NCBI GenBank assembly: GCA_947476185.1
Contig: CANJPX010000004.1
Location: 1-64,000, forward strand
DNA: 64,000 nt
Direction of reading: 5' to 3'
Source of the DNA: Bacteroidota bacterium
GTDB lineage: Bacteria; Bacteroidota; Bacteroidia; 2-12-FULL-35-15
Below are positions 7,045 through 42,917 of the stretch, in pieces. Made by a program: the position numbers and the translations under genes. The notes beneath the pieces are model-generated. The model did not search any database. It had not been told where the DNA came from and worked only from the letters and a program-made list of their open reading frames with translations. Numbering within the stretch: the first letter of the stretch is position 1; each line of letters starts with the position of its first letter.

Positions 7045-7113
7045 TTTGCTTCGTGCAAAAAGTCTTATTTACTTTTTTTGTGACAACTTATTTCAGGACG
7101 AGAGAAGATAAAT

Positions 7114-7147
7114 AAAAAAGCCATCCGTAAGGATGGCTTTTTTATTT
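7114..7147. terminator. Bidirectional intrinsic terminator
   Basis: GCCATCC (7120-7126) and GGATGGC (7131-7137) enclose a GTAA loop, with A-run and T-run on either side. It separates the convergent 6598-7044 gene and the FG-GAP protein gene. Confidence 0.88.
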
Positions 7148-7164
7148 AGAAAATATAAAACTAA

Positions 7165-10100
7165 TTATTTACTACGAATGATTCTGATAGTGCTAACAGT
7201 TTTGCTGTTTGCCACCTTTAAGAAATAAATACCGTCAGCAAAATTTTGCATGTCGATTTCTGTTTTCAATGAGCTAGATTTAACAGAATATATTACATTT
7301 CCCAAAACATCGAATAGAGAGATAGTATTATCATTTGCTTCTGTTTCGATGTTCAACATTCCAGAAGTAGGGTTTGGATATACGCTGAACAAGGATTCTG
7401 AAATAGAAGAAATACCAGCACATACATCAACAAATATATTATCAGTTGATGCTGCAAAACAACCGTTTGCATCGGTATACGTGTATGTAATCACATTAAA
7501 ACCAGCTGATGCAGCTGACGGGTTGAACGATCCAAGAGTAACTCCTGTTCCGGTGAAAACACCTCCTGTAGGTGATCCTCCTGTTAATGTAAATGCCGAA
7601 TTGTATGTACATACTGTGTCAACTGGCACTGCAACTGTTACAGACGGAGCTGGCGGATTTGATAATGTAGACGAAGCTGCTGATGTGCAACCGTTTGCAT
7701 CAGTAACTGTATAGCTATAAACACCCGCAGCTAATCCCGAAATATTTTGAGTTGTAGCACCATTGCTCCAAAGGAAAGTATAAGCAGAAGTGCCACCTGT
7801 AACTGTTAAATCAATTGCTCCATTTGCACCAGAACAAGTTGTTGGATCTGTAGATGCATAATTTGAAATTAATAAAGCTGGTTCCGTAACAGTTATTGTA
7901 GTAACAAAAGTAGCAGAAGTAGCATCTGTAACCGTGAAATTATGAATTCCAGCACCTACAGTAAATACACCTTCCCCTGTATATGGAGGTGTTCCACCAG
8001 AACCTACAACAGTAACTGTTGTGTTTCCACCATTACATAAAATAGCTGAGCCCATCGTTGAAGTTGCAGAAACACTTAGTGTAACCGTAGCAACAACAGG
8101 AACTCTTGGAGCACTTGTACATGACGAAGTAGGAGAGGTGATTTTCCAATCATAATAATAGTAATATTGGGCACTACTAGTTGCTGCGCCTGTATAACCA
8201 TTGGTGATTGTTACATACCCCGCTGCAGAATATGGATAAGTTGCACCTGTATTGTTTCTCTTTAGTTGAGTCGTTGTTGCTGATGATTGAGTTAAACGAT
8301 ATCCCGTACCAGGAGTTAATGGGAAATTTAGCGTTATTACTGATGAGTCAACTGGAAGAATTCCTGTAGTAAATGAATTTAAAACGGTTCCCGCTGAATT
8401 TTTTAATTGTATTGTTTTTGTACCAGAGGTTGTTGCATACACTTTAACCGAAGTTAGTGTACATGGTGCAATAACATTAAAATCAAGGCCCCCATTTGAT
8501 GTACTTGCAGCTGACCCGCTTCCATTTGCTTTACCTGTGGAATTAGTTGCTCCTAGATAAATAGTAGTTTGATCAATATAATAAGTGGTAGTTGTGCCAA
8601 TTGTAGGTGTAGTAAACGCTACCCCTGTTCCTAAGGATGCACCACCTGAAGCAGCTGCATACCAATTAACTGTTCCACTACCTGCGGCCGATAAATTGTA
8701 TGTTGCAGGACCAGGTCCTGAAGCTCCTGTAGCTGTTGGACTTGGTGAAGCCAAAACCGATATTACTGTAGGAGCTGCTGTCCAGTTTTGACATAATCCT
8801 GTTGTCGTTAAAGAATATGTTCCTGTTGACGTAGGGTTAATAGATTGAGTAGTTGCAGTAAAACCTGTTGGTCCAGTCCAGCTGTATGCAGATGCTGTTG
8901 AACTAGTTAAAGTTAGAGTGCCTGCACATGAATTAACTCCAGAAGTTGTAACTGTAGGCGTTTCAATTGGATTAAGAACAGTAGTAATTGTTGGTGAAAG
9001 ATTTGAGCAACCAGCTGTACTAACTAATACGTTATAATTTGACGTAGAAGTAGAAGTGACAGAAGATGTTGTAGCTCCGTTTGACCATAAATAAGAAGTG
9101 TAACCAGGCTGTGCATTTAGTGTTACGGATCCTCCAGTACAATATGCAAATGGTCCTGGTATTATGTTCCCAGTTATTGTACATGTTCCTTCAACTGCTG
9201 TAACAAATTGATTTGCAGAAAGAGTTCCGAAAGTAGTCGTACCTCCTGCCGGCCATTCGATTACTGCTGATGTGATTTCAGTATTAGAACCTAATCCAAA
9301 ATGCACTTGCAATGAATTAGACGTTCCATAAGTTTCACCTGATCTAACTTCGCGAACTTGAGTTCCAAAAGCACCAGTAATAGTAACTTTAGCGCCAATA
9401 GCATTTTGATTACTTGCAGTACCTGTTAAATTAAAAGTGATAAAGTGATTTGAGTTTTTATTGTTTAACCATAAAACATCTGCTGTTGTAGTTGGGGTAT
9501 TGTAACCACTTCCATAAGAAGCTTCAATATCTATAAAGCCATCATGATTTAAATCACCAGTAGCAAATGATAAAAATGGACTCATTGAACCACCAAAAGC
9601 ACCTGTTACATTTGTGTATGTTCCGTCTCCGTTATTGTGGTACATTACTATGCTAGACCCGTTGTAAGCAGTAATGAAAATGTCTAACCAACCATCGTTA
9701 TCAAAATCTTCTAAAATTGATTCCTCTGCATCAAAAGAAGTTGAAAACCCAGAGCCAGCTGTTACATCTGTAAAAACAGCTGAACCATTGTTTTTGAAAA
9801 TTTGACTGTTTTCTCCGTGATTGGTTTGTAAAACATCCATATCACCATCGTTATCCAAATCACCAAAACTTGAAGTCCAAGATTGTTTAAAATCTCCAAC
9901 TGGTTCAATGTTAGTTGATGCAGCACTTTCCGTGAAAACACCTGAACCATTATTTTTAAATAAACGATCTCTTCTTCTTTGATCTGTATAACTTGATGTA
10001 CTTTGACGACAATGTGCAATGTAAAGATCCAAATCGCCATCATTGTCGATATCTAACCAAACACTTCCATAATTTCCAGAATCATAAGGGTCTCCTCCGT

Positions 10101-10677
10101 AAGTCAAACCTGGATTAATATTGGTGTTTATTAATGTTGTTGTCGCAGCTAAAGTGCCACTGTTGTTTTTGTAAATTTTCATGTAATTATTATCATCGCA
10201 AACGGCTAAGTCTACCCAACCATCATTGTCAAAATCACCAAAAGTGATATTTTGCACAAAGTATGACCCAGTTAACGTAATAATTGTTTTAGCAATTGTA
10301 CTTCCTGTCCAAGATAGTTTTACAAGGTACATAGCTCCATTATTGCCAGTTGCAATATCTTTCCACCCATTGTGGTCAATATCGGCAACTGCCATTCCCC
10401 AAACATTTGAAGCTGATATAGCTCCTAAATTATAATGTGTATATGACCCGTTTTGATTCTGCATGTCAATTACAAGTGATTTTGACTGGTCCATCTTAAC
10501 AATATCATCAAGACCATCATTGTTGATATCAGATACAGAAATTGCGCAGCCACTATGAGTAGCTGTAGGGGTAAGGGTGTTCGAATTTGTAAAAGCGGTC
10601 TGTGAATTAACAATATTTGTAAATATTGAAAAACAGAATACTCCAAAAAACATTTTGTGGAAAGTAGAGTTTGTCAT
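7165..10677 (-). CDS. FG-GAP / ASPIC-UnbV repeat surface protein with T9SS sorting domain
   Basis: A very large secreted protein (1170 residues from the chosen ATG, which puts the hydrophobic signal segment right at the N-terminus; an ATG 14 codons upstream is less likely). Residues about 40-410 carry repeated D-x-D/N-x-DG calcium-binding loops of FG-GAP/VCBS type (DINNDGLDD, DFDNDGWVD, DIDNDGDLD). An ASPIC/UnbV domain follows, then Ig-like and SprB-like repeats with Cys and Thr/Ser-rich sequence. The last 75 residues (SVYPNPTSG to IRIIRSK) are a type A T9SS sorting domain. A beta-propeller adhesin or surface scaffold is the likely role. It follows the pentaheme cytochrome gene by 46 bp on the same strand, so the two are probably cotranscribed. 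Confidence 0.85.
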   Translation of the reverse strand: MTNSTFHKMFFGVFCFSIFTNIVNSQTAFTNSNTLTPTATHSGCAISVSDINNDGLDDIVKMDQSKSLVIDMQNQNGSYTHYNLGAISASNVWGMAVADIDHNGWKDIATGNNGAMYLVKLSWTGSTIAKTIITLTGSYFVQNITFGDFDNDGWVDLAVCDDNNYMKIYKNNSGTLAATTTLINTNINPGLTYGGDPYDSGNYGSVWLDIDNDGDLDLYIAHCRQSTSSYTDQRRRDRLFKNNGSGVFTESAASTNIEPVGDFKQSWTSSFGDLDNDGDMDVLQTNHGENSQIFKNNGSAVFTDVTAGSGFSTSFDAEESILEDFDNDGWLDIFITAYNGSSIVMYHNNGDGTYTNVTGAFGGSMSPFLSFATGDLNHDGFIDIEASYGSGYNTPTTTADVLWLNNKNSNHFITFNLTGTASNQNAIGAKVTITGAFGTQVREVRSGETYGTSNSLQVHFGLGSNTEITSAVIEWPAGGTTTFGTLSANQFVTAVEGTCTITGNIIPGPFAYCTGGSVTLNAQPGYTSYLWSNGATTSSVTSTSTSNYNVLVSTAGCSNLSPTITTVLNPIETPTVTTSGVNSCAGTLTLTSSTASAYSWTGPTGFTATTQSINPTSTGTYSLTTTGLCQNWTAAPTVISVLASPSPTATGASGPGPATYNLSAAGSGTVNWYAAASGGASLGTGVAFTTPTIGTTTTYYIDQTTIYLGATNSTGKANGSGSAASTSNGGLDFNVIAPCTLTSVKVYATTSGTKTIQLKNSAGTVLNSFTTGILPVDSSVITLNFPLTPGTGYRLTQSSATTTQLKRNNTGATYPYSAAGYVTITNGYTGAATSSAQYYYYYDWKITSPTSSCTSAPRVPVVATVTLSVSATSTMGSAILCNGGNTTVTVVGSGGTPPYTGEGVFTVGAGIHNFTVTDATSATFVTTITVTEPALLISNYASTDPTTCSGANGAIDLTVTGGTSAYTFLWSNGATTQNISGLAAGVYSYTVTDANGCTSAASSTLSNPPAPSVTVAVPVDTVCTYNSAFTLTGGSPTGGVFTGTGVTLGSFNPSAASAGFNVITYTYTDANGCFAASTDNIFVDVCAGISSISESLFSVYPNPTSGMLNIETEANDNTISLFDVLGNVIYSVKSSSLKTEIDMQNFADGIYFLKVANSKTVSTIRIIRSK

Positions 10678-10723
10678 GATTTTGGCTTTTGTTTTAGTTT
10701 GAGCTACCAAAATAAGCAAAATG

Positions 10724-12676
10724 TCATGATTTTACAACTTTTTTATAAATTATTTTTGTGCAGGTGATAATTTTTATATAATATATCCCCGAAATATTAG
10801 GTAAATAGAGGCTAATAGAAGGTTGGTACCCAATATTTTGAAGTTCTGATTGAATTTGCCCTGCAGAATTATAGACAATCACTGACTTTATGAGTGTTCC
10901 ATATTCAGAAGAAATATAAATATTGCCATCCATAGTGATTGTTGGCCACACTTTTACTTGTTCATTTAAGGAAAATCTGTTAGTAGAAAGTGGTAAGAGT
11001 ACATTGATCAAGCTGTCGCTTGCAACCAAAATGGGCTTTTTGTCGGCCCCATCATACATCGTTTTAAATGTATTTATTTCTGGAGTACTGTATGTAAACA
11101 TATTTTCTACCCATTTTGGCGGAATGGATTGATAATACATTTTTGATTTCACACTTATATTTCCAACTGCTGCTGACAAAGGAACGGCAAAATGCACCCA
11201 ATCAATTCCACTGCCTTCAATTGAAGAAATTTTATTGAAATCGGGATCAGAAAATGCGTCATTCGAATTTTTTACAGTATCATAAACCGGCGAAGCGGAT
11301 GTGAAACCTAATGGTGGTATTCGATTGTCTTTTAATAAAATAGAAGCTCGCTCTAATACGGAAGTGAAATTTCCATTCACATCCCCAGGAACCAATTCAT
11401 AAATTTGAGGGACATTGGATTGATTAATATTATCATGGTGGATTTCGAAAGCAGTGTTTTCTCCAATTACACCAAATTGATCATTAAAAATTCCGGATTT
11501 GAAAATAGTATCACTATTTCCATCAATTACTACAAATTGTAAAACAGCTCTTCGAGAAGGATAACCAGAAGGGAACTTATGTCCCGTTTTGTTTTTTAAC
11601 ATCACCTTAAAAAAGGCAGTGTCTGAAGTGATACTAACTAATTGTAAATCTAGATCCAAAGCTTTTGTTTGCAACATATCCATTGTAGCGGTGATGGTTG
11701 AATCAAAACTTTTGTTTGGTACATCTATTCCGAGAGCGGCTTTGTTTGCTTTGATTAAATTAAGCATTAAGGAATTCGCTCCTGCAAAAACATGTTGATT
11801 AAATGGAATACGTGGTGTTAGACCGGTAAACCCATTTGCGATAATTATTGGATCTAAAACTTGTGGCATATGACAAGTTTGACATTGGATATTGTTAGCA
11901 GGAAAATCTGAATTTTTATATTCATGATAAGTTGCTTGCTCCACAAAGTAACCTCCAGTAAAGCTTCCTGACAGATCAACGGATTCGGTAATTAGCGTAT
12001 GACAAGAAGAACACACTTTAGCTTGAGCCATATGGCTACTATAGGTAGGTGTGAATCCTTCATATAATTGCATTGGTCCCACAGAAGGTGCTGTGAAAGG
12101 ACCATATTCAACATGGTTTGTGTCGTAAGGTATTATGCCCGAATAAGTAAAGCCCACACTCGGATCTATTGCATGGCAAGAGCCGCAAGACACTCCGTCT
12201 AATCCAAGTGTATCATTTACAAGATCAGAAAGACCATAAAAAGGGTTGCCATGGAACTTAGAAGTATACGCACCTAAGGGTGCATGGCAATCTAAACATT
12301 TGTTTTGAAGTCCGCCAGCATGGGATGGATTTATAGTAATTTCATGTGTTACTTTCGCCCTCCAAAAAGGATCTTTTGCTGATAACGCCATCATTGAACT
12401 TTCCCATCTGCTAACTAAATTTATATCTTCTCCAGCTTCATTGATGTTTGCTACATGAGCTGAATCGTATCCATGGCAGCCTCTGCAGCTCGACGAAGGC
12501 AGAAAGAATTCCCCAGGTTCAATTGGAGCCCGATTCAATATTCCTTTGTAAGCATCTAACTGGGATTGAGTATGAAATTTGTGTCCCGAATTTTTTGAAG
12601 AAGCAGAGTTCAAAAATTTAAAGCCAGTCACAAAGCCAACTATTATAAAAAGAATTGTAATTTTTTTAATATTCAT
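10724..12676 (-). CDS. Pentaheme c-type cytochrome with T9SS-like sorting domain
   Basis: A 650-residue exported multihaem protein. An N-terminal hydrophobic segment (about 5-19) is the signal. Five CxxCH haem-binding motifs are visible: CRGCH 64-68, CLDCH 127-131, CGSCH 164-168, CSSCH 222-226 and CQTCH 265-269. The second half has no haem motif and is beta-rich. The final 80 residues (VIVYNSAGQ to YYIKIITCTKIIYKKVVKS) match a type A T9SS sorting domain. The protein should therefore be a surface-exposed electron carrier or redox enzyme; the substrate is unknown. The FG-GAP gene follows closely, and dsbD lies upstream on the same strand behind a terminator. Confidence 0.85.
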   Translation of the reverse strand: MNIKKITILFIIVGFVTGFKFLNSASSKNSGHKFHTQSQLDAYKGILNRAPIEPGEFFLPSSSCRGCHGYDSAHVANINEAGEDINLVSRWESSMMALSAKDPFWRAKVTHEITINPSHAGGLQNKCLDCHAPLGAYTSKFHGNPFYGLSDLVNDTLGLDGVSCGSCHAIDPSVGFTYSGIIPYDTNHVEYGPFTAPSVGPMQLYEGFTPTYSSHMAQAKVCSSCHTLITESVDLSGSFTGGYFVEQATYHEYKNSDFPANNIQCQTCHMPQVLDPIIIANGFTGLTPRIPFNQHVFAGANSLMLNLIKANKAALGIDVPNKSFDSTITATMDMLQTKALDLDLQLVSITSDTAFFKVMLKNKTGHKFPSGYPSRRAVLQFVVIDGNSDTIFKSGIFNDQFGVIGENTAFEIHHDNINQSNVPQIYELVPGDVNGNFTSVLERASILLKDNRIPPLGFTSASPVYDTVKNSNDAFSDPDFNKISSIEGSGIDWVHFAVPLSAAVGNISVKSKMYYQSIPPKWVENMFTYSTPEINTFKTMYDGADKKPILVASDSLINVLLPLSTNRFSLNEQVKVWPTITMDGNIYISSEYGTLIKSVIVYNSAGQIQSELQNIGYQPSISLYLPNISGIYYIKIITCTKIIYKKVVKS

Positions 12677-12693
12677 GCAGTAATTTTTTTCTG

Positions 12694-12723
12694 TAAATAT
12701 AATTAATAATGAATAGCGACAAA
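12694..12723 (-). promoter_or_regulatory. Candidate promoter of the cytochrome/FG-GAP pair
   Basis: On the minus strand TTTG (12723-12720), 18 bp, then TATATTTA (12701-12694) resemble the Bacteroidota -33 TTG / -7 TAnnTTTG promoter with one mismatch in the -7 box. It lies 17 bp before the cytochrome ATG and downstream of the dsbD terminator, consistent with an independent transcript. Confidence 0.45.
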
Positions 12724-12760
12724 GTTGCTAAAATATGTGAAATGTCCAAGCCATAATTAA

Positions 12761-12796
12761 AAAAAAATCCCGATTCTTCATCGGGATTTTTTTTAT
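12761..12796 (-). terminator. Intrinsic terminator after dsbD
   Basis: ATCCCGAT (12767-12774) pairs with ATCGGGAT (12780-12787) around a 5-nt loop, with A/T tracts on both sides. It lies immediately after the dsbD stop codon and separates dsbD from the cytochrome gene. Confidence 0.85.
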
Positions 12797-14928
12797 TTGC
12801 CAGAACGCTTTTTGAACTCGTTAATGCCTTCGTCCATCCAATTGGTGTATTCTGGTATTCCTGATTTATAGCCTCTTGGAGTATTAAGCAATTGTTCATT
12901 ATGGTCGAGCAACACATACAAGGGTTGCGTACTTTGTTTGTATAATGTTTCTTCCATATATTTAAATTTATCTCCAACAGTTGTGATCTCTCTTTCTTGA
13001 CCGAACCAAAATACCTTCATATAATCCTTTGGGTCTAATTCCGCTTTATCATCAACGAATAAAGAAACCAACACTACATTATTGTTAAGACGTTTTGTTA
13101 CCTCTGCATCCGGCCAAACGAAGTCTTCAGTTTTTCTACAGTTTGCACATTGAAGTCCTGTAAAATCGATCATCAATGGTTTACCAACTTTTTTTGCATA
13201 AGCTAATGCATGTGCATAATCGTTTTTGAAATGTACAATTCCATTTTTGCTGGTATGAATATATGCTGCAAATTTAGGGTCAGTATTTGAAGCTTCCGAA
13301 TTAGTGCTCGTTCCGGAACCACCAAATCCATTAGGGGATTCAGAGTTTTCGTAGGATGGTAAAACACCGCTGAATAATTTTAGTGGCGCACCCCATAATC
13401 CGGGAATTAAATAAATGGTAACAAAGAAAGAAAGAATGATAATGAATATTCTTGTTACTGAAAGGTGTTTAACATCACTGTCGTGAGAGGTCTTAAATCC
13501 ACCTAATAAGTATATCGTCATTAATCCGAAAATTACTATCCAAAGTGAAATGAATACTTCCCGGGTTAAAATTCCGGAATTATATGCGACATCCACATTA
13601 GAGGCAAATTTTAAAGCAAGTGCTAATTCTAAGAATCCTAAAACAACTTTTACAGTGTTAAGCCAGCCACCACTTTTCGGCATGGAGTTTAGCATAGATG
13701 GGAAAAAGGCAAACAATCCAAAAGGTAAAGCTAAGCCAGATGAAAATCCTAACATAGCCCAAAATGCGCCAGCCGTATTTCCGGAAGTGGAAGCTGCAAC
13801 AAGAGCATTTCCAACCATTGGCCCTGTACATGAAAAGGAAACTACGACCAATGCCAATGCCATGAAAAAGATTCCTGCAAATCCGCCTCTATCACCTTGA
13901 GCGTCAATTTTATTGACAAAAGCAGAGGGTAATACTATTTCGAATGCTCCTAAAAATGATGCGGCAAAAACTAACAACAAAATAAATATCACAAAATTAA
14001 ATCCTGCGCTTGTTGCAAAGGTATTCAGAGCGCCACCACCCCAAATTGCAGAAATACCCAATCCTAACGTAACAAAAATTACAATGATGGATAATGCATA
14101 CAATACCGCATTTAGCTTTCCTTTGGCTTTTGTTTTACTTCTTTTTAAGAAAAAACTTACGTTCATCGGTATCATTGGAAAAACGCAAGGAGTGAAAAGA
14201 GCAGCAAAACCCCATAAGAAACCTGTTAATAATATTGACCACCAGGATTTTCCTTCCAAGGAAGTATCATCCACCTCCGTTTTAAAATTGTTCGATTGTT
14301 TAACAATTGTTTTAGACGATGAGTCAACATTTGTGCTGGAGATCTTTGGTTCAGAAGGTGTTTTTGATGCGAAGGCTTGTGCAACAGCTCCGGAGTCGAT
14401 AATACATGGTGCATTATTGGTTCCAATAGGAACAAGATTTACTCCTTGCTTTTCACATTCTTCAGTTCCTTTGAACTTAAATTCAAATGGAGTGGCAGGA
14501 GGGAAAATGCATTTTTCTTCAGTACAAGCCTGGTATTCGTATTTTCCTTTTATTACAATTTCTTTATTTGCTTTTAAAGCTATTTTTTGTTTGAAGGTTA
14601 CTGTTTTTTCAAAATAGGCAACTTGCATATCAAAAACCTTGTCCATTGCTCTGATTGGAGTACCTTCTGTCGGCTTTCCTATTGCTTCATAATCATTGCT
14701 TTTGTCTACATATATGTTTGCAGGCATCGGGCCTTCATCGCCTTTCATCGTTAGGGAATATACATGCCAATGCTCCTCAATGGTGCCTGTGAATTGGATC
14801 TCATATTCACAAGCGCTGATTTTTTTGCTAGATAATTTCCATTTTACAGGATCGACTACTTGTGCAAAAGATTGATTAAATAATAATACGCCTGTGAGGA
14901 GTATAGTAAGCCTGAAAATGTTCTTCAT
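12793..14928 (-). CDS. dsbD: Thiol:disulfide interchange protein DsbD
   Basis: DsbD passes electrons from cytoplasmic thioredoxin across the inner membrane to periplasmic thiol proteins. All three modules are present in 711 residues: a signal peptide (1-22) and an N-terminal beta domain with Cys135/Cys140 (ACTEEKCIFPP); a CcdA-like membrane core of eight or so helices (about 228-515) with Cys248 (FTPCVFPM) and Cys367 (SFSCTGP); and a C-terminal thioredoxin domain with Cys594-x-x-Cys597 (CANC). A low-complexity linker (525-550) joins the last two. It is monocistronic with its own terminator. Downstream lies a pentaheme cytochrome, whose CxxCH motifs need reduced cysteines for haem attachment; that link is inferred from position. 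Confidence 0.93.
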   Translation of the reverse strand: MKNIFRLTILLTGVLLFNQSFAQVVDPVKWKLSSKKISACEYEIQFTGTIEEHWHVYSLTMKGDEGPMPANIYVDKSNDYEAIGKPTEGTPIRAMDKVFDMQVAYFEKTVTFKQKIALKANKEIVIKGKYEYQACTEEKCIFPPATPFEFKFKGTEECEKQGVNLVPIGTNNAPCIIDSGAVAQAFASKTPSEPKISSTNVDSSSKTIVKQSNNFKTEVDDTSLEGKSWWSILLTGFLWGFAALFTPCVFPMIPMNVSFFLKRSKTKAKGKLNAVLYALSIIVIFVTLGLGISAIWGGGALNTFATSAGFNFVIFILLLVFAASFLGAFEIVLPSAFVNKIDAQGDRGGFAGIFFMALALVVVSFSCTGPMVGNALVAASTSGNTAGAFWAMLGFSSGLALPFGLFAFFPSMLNSMPKSGGWLNTVKVVLGFLELALALKFASNVDVAYNSGILTREVFISLWIVIFGLMTIYLLGGFKTSHDSDVKHLSVTRIFIIILSFFVTIYLIPGLWGAPLKLFSGVLPSYENSESPNGFGGSGTSTNSEASNTDPKFAAYIHTSKNGIVHFKNDYAHALAYAKKVGKPLMIDFTGLQCANCRKTEDFVWPDAEVTKRLNNNVVLVSLFVDDKAELDPKDYMKVFWFGQEREITTVGDKFKYMEETLYKQSTQPLYVLLDHNEQLLNTPRGYKSGIPEYTNWMDEGINEFKKRSGK

Positions 14929-42496: not shown

Positions 42497-42917
42497 AGAG
42501 CCAAGAATTAAGACAAAATAGCCTTTTCCGAAGCAACCTTTTCTCTAAATGAAAAAATCATTTTTTGTATTTCTGTAACTAAATTTAATGTTCGATTTAA
42601 TAATTCTTGCTTCCCATATTTTCTTCGCTCACTTATCAGTAACTGAGTTTCCAATTCATACGAAGAACAAAGCGAAATGGAAAGGTATTCTGCAAATTGC
42701 AACTTTGTCCTTTTTCCTGAACCTTCAGCTATATTAGAAGGAATAGAGCAGGAGCACCTGTTCATTTGGTCAATCAAATTATATCTTTCTTCTTTTGGCA
42801 AATCTTTACAATACAAGAATGTCAAATCTGCCAAATCCATGGATTTTTGCCAGATCAAAAGCTGTTTGAAATTATGCGCCATAATTTGATGTAAAATTTT
42901 AAAGTCAAGAACTAAGA
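42497..42917. repeat. Direct repeats bracketing the four-helix-bundle gene
   Basis: AGAGCCAAGAATTAAGA at 42497-42513 and AAAGTCAAGAACTAAGA at 42901-42917 match at 14 of 17 positions in direct orientation and bracket the gene 42508-42882. A related sequence in the opposite orientation (TCTTGGCTCCTGATTCTAA) is at 43003-43021, before miaB's end. This suggests the gene travelled or was inserted as a small unit. Confidence 0.45.
42508..42882 (-). CDS. Four-helix-bundle protein (23S rRNA IVS-protein family)
   Basis: A 124-residue helical protein of the family first seen in intervening sequences of 23S rRNA and now known widely as free-standing genes. Diagnostic stretches are FKQLLIWQKSMDLA, DLPKEERYNLIDQMNRCSCSIPSNIAEGSG and FAEYLSISLCSSYELETQL. 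The fold is a pentamer-forming four-helix bundle; the function is unknown. No rRNA is near. It is flanked by degenerate direct repeats, and its terminal codons overlap one of them. Confidence 0.88.
   Translation of the reverse strand: MAHNFKQLLIWQKSMDLADLTFLYCKDLPKEERYNLIDQMNRCSCSIPSNIAEGSGKRTKLQFAEYLSISLCSSYELETQLLISERRKYGKQELLNRTLNLVTEIQKMIFSFREKVASEKAILS

Follow-up and report, generated by a model that had tools for sequence, protein, structure and literature searches.

The 64,000-nucleotide stretch of Bacteroidota DNA considered here (positions 1 to 64,000 of contig CANJPX010000004.1, assembly GCA_947476185.1; referred to below as the window) contains, on its minus strand, the gene order dsbD, a gene encoding a pentahaem c-type cytochrome and a gene encoding a large FG-GAP protein. 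An earlier note on positions 10724-14928, made from the sequence alone, had described a five-haem cytochrome, tagged with a type IX secretion system (T9SS) sorting domain and probably exposed at the cell surface, paired with the FG-GAP protein and lying next to DsbD, to which the supply of reductant for haem attachment was ascribed. The FG-GAP gene lies just beyond that range, in an open reading frame (ORF) that is open from a TTG at 10719 (7165-10719, minus strand) and that probably starts at an ATG at 10677. The analysis presented here places the cytochrome in the ExtKL/TtPHCP group of pentahaem cytochromes, as a member with predicted T9SS sorting and a CRTAC1-like partner. Gradings of confidence given in the text are judgements and were not computed.

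Five CXXCH motifs were located in the cytochrome, at residues 64, 127, 164, 222 and 265, in the very ORF to which the earlier note had assigned a five-haem protein; more than two such motifs were never seen in 20,000 residue shuffles. Beyond the haem motifs, histidines H295 and H366 (the latter within GHKFPSG) are invariant across 17 sequences from several phyla. When a profile of relatives that includes distant members (alignment A1) was compared with the PDB, the pentahaem cytochrome c552 of Thermochromatium tepidum (TtPHCP; 5ze8) was matched with an E value of 5.8e-16, with a second profile (A2) giving 1.4e-6. Structure comparison also aligned 5ze8 with residues 54-558 of the cytochrome (Z 10.1; root-mean-square deviation (rmsd) 5.4; 291 residues aligned), although the AlphaFold (AF2) model used for the haem core has a mean predicted local distance difference test score (pLDDT) of only 52.6, lacks haems and is too poor for ligand assignment. 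The two proteins share five haem sites and, by prediction, a beta domain following the haem part and containing a similar G/HxxPsG stretch, whereas 5ze8 is a chain of 435 residues and leaves the T9SS tail unaligned. T. tepidum c552 is not known to have an FG-GAP partner. Weaker profile matches were to MccSep (9wt8/9wt9; E about 1e-6), a multihaem cytochrome that contains selenocysteine, and to 8e5g (E 0.014), a c-type cytochrome of 262 residues that we take to be an archaeal extracellular cytochrome filament.

According to the reports cited here and below by PMC number, T. tepidum c552 is placed with ExtKL, the pentahaem cytochromes of cable bacteria and archaeal extracellular cytochrome nanowires (ECNs), with sPHC and AvECN, an archaeal ECN, having a similar haem arrangement (PMC11976967), while ExtKL is part of the extHIJKL cluster, which includes the porin ExtI (PMC6148476). 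In Geobacter ExtKL and the cable-bacterium family (PMC11976967, PMC6148476), as in the window cytochrome, the pentahaem domain precedes one that is Ig-like; unlike ExtKL, the window cytochrome has no in-frame selenocysteine codon and carries a T9SS tail in place of a porin (ExtI) cluster. The core belongs with the ExtKL/TtPHCP group. It was not assigned to the ExtKL equivalog itself, given that NF040886 scored 15.2 bits against a cut-off of 250 (27.3-35.9 in relatives), in a local match around GHKFPSG. Assignment as a NrfA-type nitrite reductase, in which the catalytic haem is typically bound by CXXCK, was rejected, as no CXXCK occurs in the sequence. The decahaem OmcA/MtrC family was also rejected, with TIGR03507 giving 28.7 bits against 209.3 and five haems being present rather than ten; similarity to that family is only local, as in the match to Pfam family PF22113 (35.1 bits; cut-off 30).

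The C-terminal region of the cytochrome passed the T9SS type A model TIGR04183 by a hair (cut-off 23 bits; Table 1). As profile evidence was borderline, the tail was checked by its fold, by a profile search of the PDB and by examination of the tails of relatives. The last 75 residues were modelled as strands (pLDDT about 73-87) and aligned best with the T9SS signals of solved translocon complexes, namely those of RemA (rmsd 1.8 over 74 aligned residues), NucA and RemZ (8gl6, 8glk, 8gl8; Z 9.5 for RemZ). A C-terminal Ig-like signal is thus common to all four proteins, the cargo here, unlike in those cases, being a multihaem cytochrome. The relatives' profile also matched the NucA tail in the PDB (E 1.4e-5), and residues P578, G584, G606, G630 and Y632 are invariant in 13 sequences. 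Relatives from outside the genus, sharing 36-44% identity, possess canonical tails starting with PNP, two of which TIGR04183 scored at 39.2 (L058) and 43.2 bits (L095). The relative L090 gave 26.4 bits with TIGR04183 and 17.5 bits with PF18962. At the other end of the protein, a basic start, a hydrophobic stretch and small residues resemble, by eye, a signal peptide of the general secretory (Sec) pathway. The genome encodes the translocon protein SprA (2605.7 bits; cut-off 200) and yields 142 matches to Por_Secre_tail. Because the structure of the tail and the PNP-type tails of relatives both favour it, we consider the matter settled in favour of a predicted T9SS type A sorting domain, as had been proposed. 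In silico, a surface location is well supported, and we are confident that the cytochrome is exported there.

The neighbouring FG-GAP protein is a CRTAC1-like FG-GAP/ASPIC propeller with a T9SS tail. Pfam families FG-GAP_3 (126.8 bits) and UnbV_ASPIC (62.8 bits) were both matched above cut-off; Ig_7, SprB and, strongly, Por_Secre_tail (54.3 bits) were matched too. The model of its first 561 residues (mean pLDDT 70) aligned with murine CRTAC1 (9etn), likewise composed of an FG-GAP propeller and an ASPIC domain, with Z 32.8 over 428 residues. CRTAC1-annotated FG-GAP genes flank genes for hydrazine-synthase-like cytochromes in other anaerobes (PMC12758564), so this locus is not alone in having a CRTAC1-like protein near multihaem proteins. 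Unlike the CRTAC1 systems, the window protein has a T9SS tail as well as Ig_7 and SprB repeats, and it is paired with a pentahaem cytochrome from the ExtKL/TtPHCP group.

Of 36 genomes of the genus, 20 encode both the cytochrome and the FG-GAP protein and the other 16 encode neither (Fisher p 1.4e-10, in a test that ignores kinship). The two genes are adjacent and co-directional in all 20 carriers, bearing out the pairing proposed in the earlier note, and no strong hairpin was found upon folding the gap between them. The pair also occurs together outside the genus, in L035, L036 and L055, where dsbD is not adjacent, and in L090. As such, the cytochrome and the FG-GAP protein probably form a functional pair.

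The gap between the two genes contains a conserved element, TTTATNNATCTCTAAAC, in 16 loci (eight distinct genomes, each represented twice; L026, L027 and L029-L034 are among these), with none of the other 149 loci matching. In the window gap (10675-10723), no match was found even when three mismatches were allowed, the copy there being degenerate. The element is possibly a leader or a regulatory site.

Table 1. Positions of features at the cytochrome locus, in window coordinates.
Feature	Position	Strand	Basis
Pentahaem c-type cytochrome gene (650 residues) with T9SS type A C-terminal domain	10724..12676	-	ORF, profiles, model, CXXCH count
Predicted T9SS type A sorting domain at cytochrome residues 572-650	10727..10963	-	TIGR04183 23.1 bits; modelled strands; Z 10.5 (RemA C-terminal domain), 10.2 (NucA C-terminal domain)
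CRTAC1-like FG-GAP/ASPIC propeller with Ig_7, SprB repeats and T9SS tail	7165..10677	-	ORFs, Pfam, fold comparison
Terminator-like hairpin closing the cytochrome/FG-GAP unit	7109..7148	-	Hairpin scan and fold
Terminator-like hairpin directly after dsbD, between dsbD and the cytochrome gene	12762..12792	-	Fold
DsbD, neighbour judged to lie outside the module	12793..14928	-	Pfam, genus distribution, gene order, hairpin

Of 394 genomes searched across the phylum, 27 contained the cytochrome, and neighbourhoods were examined in the window genome and in 21 others of these (the five weakest, G110, G173, G267, G306 and G310, being left out). In one other Bacteroidota clade (11 tree rows; support 100), the cytochrome stops before the tail, at about 555 residues. 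In all 11 rows of this untailed clade, a co-directional neighbour combines an N-terminal monohaem cytochrome c domain with a putative beta-barrel whose last residue is aromatic; no such neighbour was found in any of 38 tailed rows. The barrel assignment draws on matches to Phenol_MetA_deg that fall below cut-off (E 0.011-0.019). In the reverse search, this putative cytochrome-porin was detected in 14 of the 394 genomes, of which 11 are exactly those of the untailed clade, with the remaining three showing weaker matches and lacking the cytochrome. The cytochrome-porin of L106 (G297) is interrupted by a stop. A further untailed copy, L099_10390, lacks a cytochrome-porin, lies in tandem with a tailed paralogue and has two stops inside the match. 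In its N-terminal haem c domain and its putative C-terminal barrel ending in W, the partner resembles Cyc2, a fused cytochrome-porin. No full-length protein of this kind was found in the window genome or its genus, where only short cytochrome c matches were obtained.

Since the tail and the cytochrome-porin partner exclude each other, T9SS export and the cytochrome-porin look like alternative ways of serving the same redox core, in line with the earlier suggestion of T9SS export rather than a porin conduit. In an outgroup-rooted tree, the untailed clade is nested within tailed sequences, the simplest story being that the porin partner took the place of the tail, although the root is not secure and support for tailed sequences with an FG-GAP neighbour as one side of a branch is only 34. 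This tree of 54 rows came from a quick search with branch support limited to the SH-like approximate likelihood ratio test (SH-aLRT) and has long outgroup branches; L033 and L034 were presumed to be duplicates and omitted (so that the genomes they represent, G018 and G032, are missing), L042, L043, L044 and L046 failed the row filter, and L045 was added by hand from A1.

Haem motifs are abundant in the window genome, with 394 CXXCH-coding matches as opposed to 177 for a control pattern. On contig C1 of this genome, a Mtr-like trio (L110:5144-11474) comprises a decahaem protein of 359 residues, a 753-residue putative barrel and a nine-haem protein of 939 residues that is likely a lipoprotein. 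The putative barrel ends in F and returned no Pfam, NCBIfam or PDB match. It was found in eight of the 36 genus genomes and in only three of the 20 carriers of the cytochrome; the trio is therefore not the general electron supply and was rejected as an obligatory one. This leaves two options: electrons reach the module by some other route or by a shuttle, or the module acts as an enzyme outside the cell. Elsewhere on the same contig (L109:9630-17750), a 19-haem protein of 1768 residues with PKD and MtrC-like domains adjoins a T9SS-tailed NHL/PKD protein.

We favour, at a probability of roughly 0.62, a reading in which the two genes constitute a self-contained cassette for an extracellular redox module, leaving open whether this serves electron transfer or redox chemistry. 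What carries this reading are the haem motifs, the sorting domain, the fold of the tail, the linkage of the genes and the alternative partnering, each observed in silico. The cytochrome would pass through the Sec pathway, have its five haems attached in the periplasm by system II (CcsBA), and then cross the outer membrane folded, presumably as holo-protein, via the T9SS, with the Ig-like C-terminal domain serving as signal, and would end up at the cell surface or be released into the medium. The CRTAC1-like propeller would be its partner, probably scaffolding or docking the cytochrome in a complex. Because the core falls in the ExtKL/TtPHCP group, the cytochrome most likely moves electrons between the cell exterior and a soluble or solid partner, or else performs redox chemistry on an extracellular substrate; a direction of electron flow and a substrate we can only infer. 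That electron transfer is its role we rate an even call, with solid acceptors in particular appearing unlikely.

Several points weigh against the cassette. By Pfam, the tail fails PF18962 (10.7 bits; gathering score 27) and is degenerate in sequence, the cytochrome not being among the Por_Secre_tail matches of the whole-genome scan. The haem core is poorly modelled, and no outer-membrane electron route common to the carriers was found, whether the Mtr-like porin or a full-length cytochrome-porin is considered. Moreover, an FG-GAP neighbour is missing in 16 tailed rows of the tree, such that the propeller is not obligatory for the cytochrome family, and FG-GAP paralogues also occur without an adjoining cytochrome.

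The most serious alternative, one that we hold to be possible but the less probable, is that of an extracellular redox enzyme acting on a small substrate (a nitrogen, sulfur, selenium or oxygen species); the propeller would then be structural, and respiration of solid acceptors would play no part. In its favour, the function of TtPHCP is unsettled, with a sulfur-related role having been suggested (PMC11976967), deletion of ExtI alters reduction of selenite and tellurite (PMC6148476), and CRTAC1/FG-GAP genes lie beside those of hydrazine-synthase-like cytochromes (PMC12758564); the lack of a conserved conduit among the carriers points the same way. On the other hand, all five motifs are CXXCH, with none of the NrfA-like CXXCK type, and no ligand or active-site evidence speaks for an enzyme. 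It is quite improbable that the protein is instead an ordinary multihaem cytochrome of the periplasm whose tail has decayed and no longer functions, and that its FG-GAP neighbour is an unrelated adhesin: the low Pfam score and the loss of the PNP motif within the genus would fit this, yet the tail itself is conserved in the genus and confidently folded in the model, relatives carry canonical PNP tails, and co-occurrence with the T9SS-tailed partner is without exception among the genus genomes.

DsbD, which comprises DsbD_N, DsbD_TM and thioredoxin domains by Pfam, was claimed in the earlier note as the functional neighbour of the cytochrome. Its gene does lie 116 nt upstream on the same strand, and DsbD/CcdA proteins can serve cytochrome maturation. 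Nonetheless, dsbD adjoins the cytochrome gene in only nine of the 20 carriers and is found in 33 of the 36 genus genomes, whether or not they encode the cytochrome. The order TilS, small protein, dsbD, gmhA is kept where the cassette is absent (e.g., G007 and G013), and the TilS-dsbD-gmhA order is also kept where the cassette sits elsewhere in the genome (G034 and G005). Finally, a perfect hairpin and T-run follow dsbD in the window and in four of seven relatives examined; of the others, L026 has a hairpin without a T-run, L027 is unclear and L031 is masked. For these reasons, a three-gene unit in which DsbD provides reductant for haem attachment to the cytochrome is scarcely credible and DsbD was excluded from the module. 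The likelier provider of haem attachment is a fused CcsBA encoded on contig C1 (ResB 78.8 bits; Cytochrom_C_asm 118.9 bits; TIGR03144 155 bits, below its cut-off of 187.6).

Bacteroidota use the T9SS for enzymes and adhesins, and how they could place multihaem cytochromes outside the cell has hardly been explored. Our searches of the literature, themselves incomplete, found no paper on T9SS-sorted multihaem cytochromes, and the word 'cytochrome' occurs nowhere in a 2023 review of T9SS effectors (PMC10202324). Some Bacteroidota may export a ready-made redox protein to the surface rather than wiring it through an outer-membrane pore. More tentatively, the T9SS could in this phylum be a general alternative to porin-cytochrome conduits, with a folded pentahaem holo-cytochrome being exported, held on the surface by a CRTAC1-like propeller and exchanging electrons with its surroundings (perhaps in the form of arrays, as it is akin to the pentahaem/ECN group), and with one clade having given up the tail in favour of a fused cytochrome-porin partner. 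For a pentahaem core that carries a T9SS tail, the precise prediction is surface haem that depends on sprA/gldK, and the exchange of tail for cytochrome-porin between clades lets two solutions for a single redox core be compared as they occur in nature. The pairing also gives CRTAC1-like proteins, the roles of which are not well understood, a link to haem proteins outside the cell.

Other observations concern more distant loci and the remainder of the window. Second FG-GAP paralogues, seen without an adjoining cytochrome at nine loci (L151-L159) in eight genus genomes, were set aside as a guide to function; in five of the genomes (L151-L155), such a second FG-GAP/ASPIC paralogue lies in a shared neighbourhood. 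In another member of the class (L163:7251-10385), an FG-GAP/ASPIC T9SS protein follows a 364-residue protein with two CXXCH motifs and no Pfam match. A distant pentahaem relative from Nitrospirae (L039:3181-5979) directly precedes genes that, by eye, resemble those of a Rieske protein and cytochrome b. A scan for promoter-like sites gave 38 sites as compared to 30.9 (sd 5.6) in shuffles and was not informative. Lastly, positions 42508-42882 of the window encode a 23S rRNA intervening-sequence protein (Pfam, 110.9 bits), flanked by sigma-54 activator and radical SAM genes.

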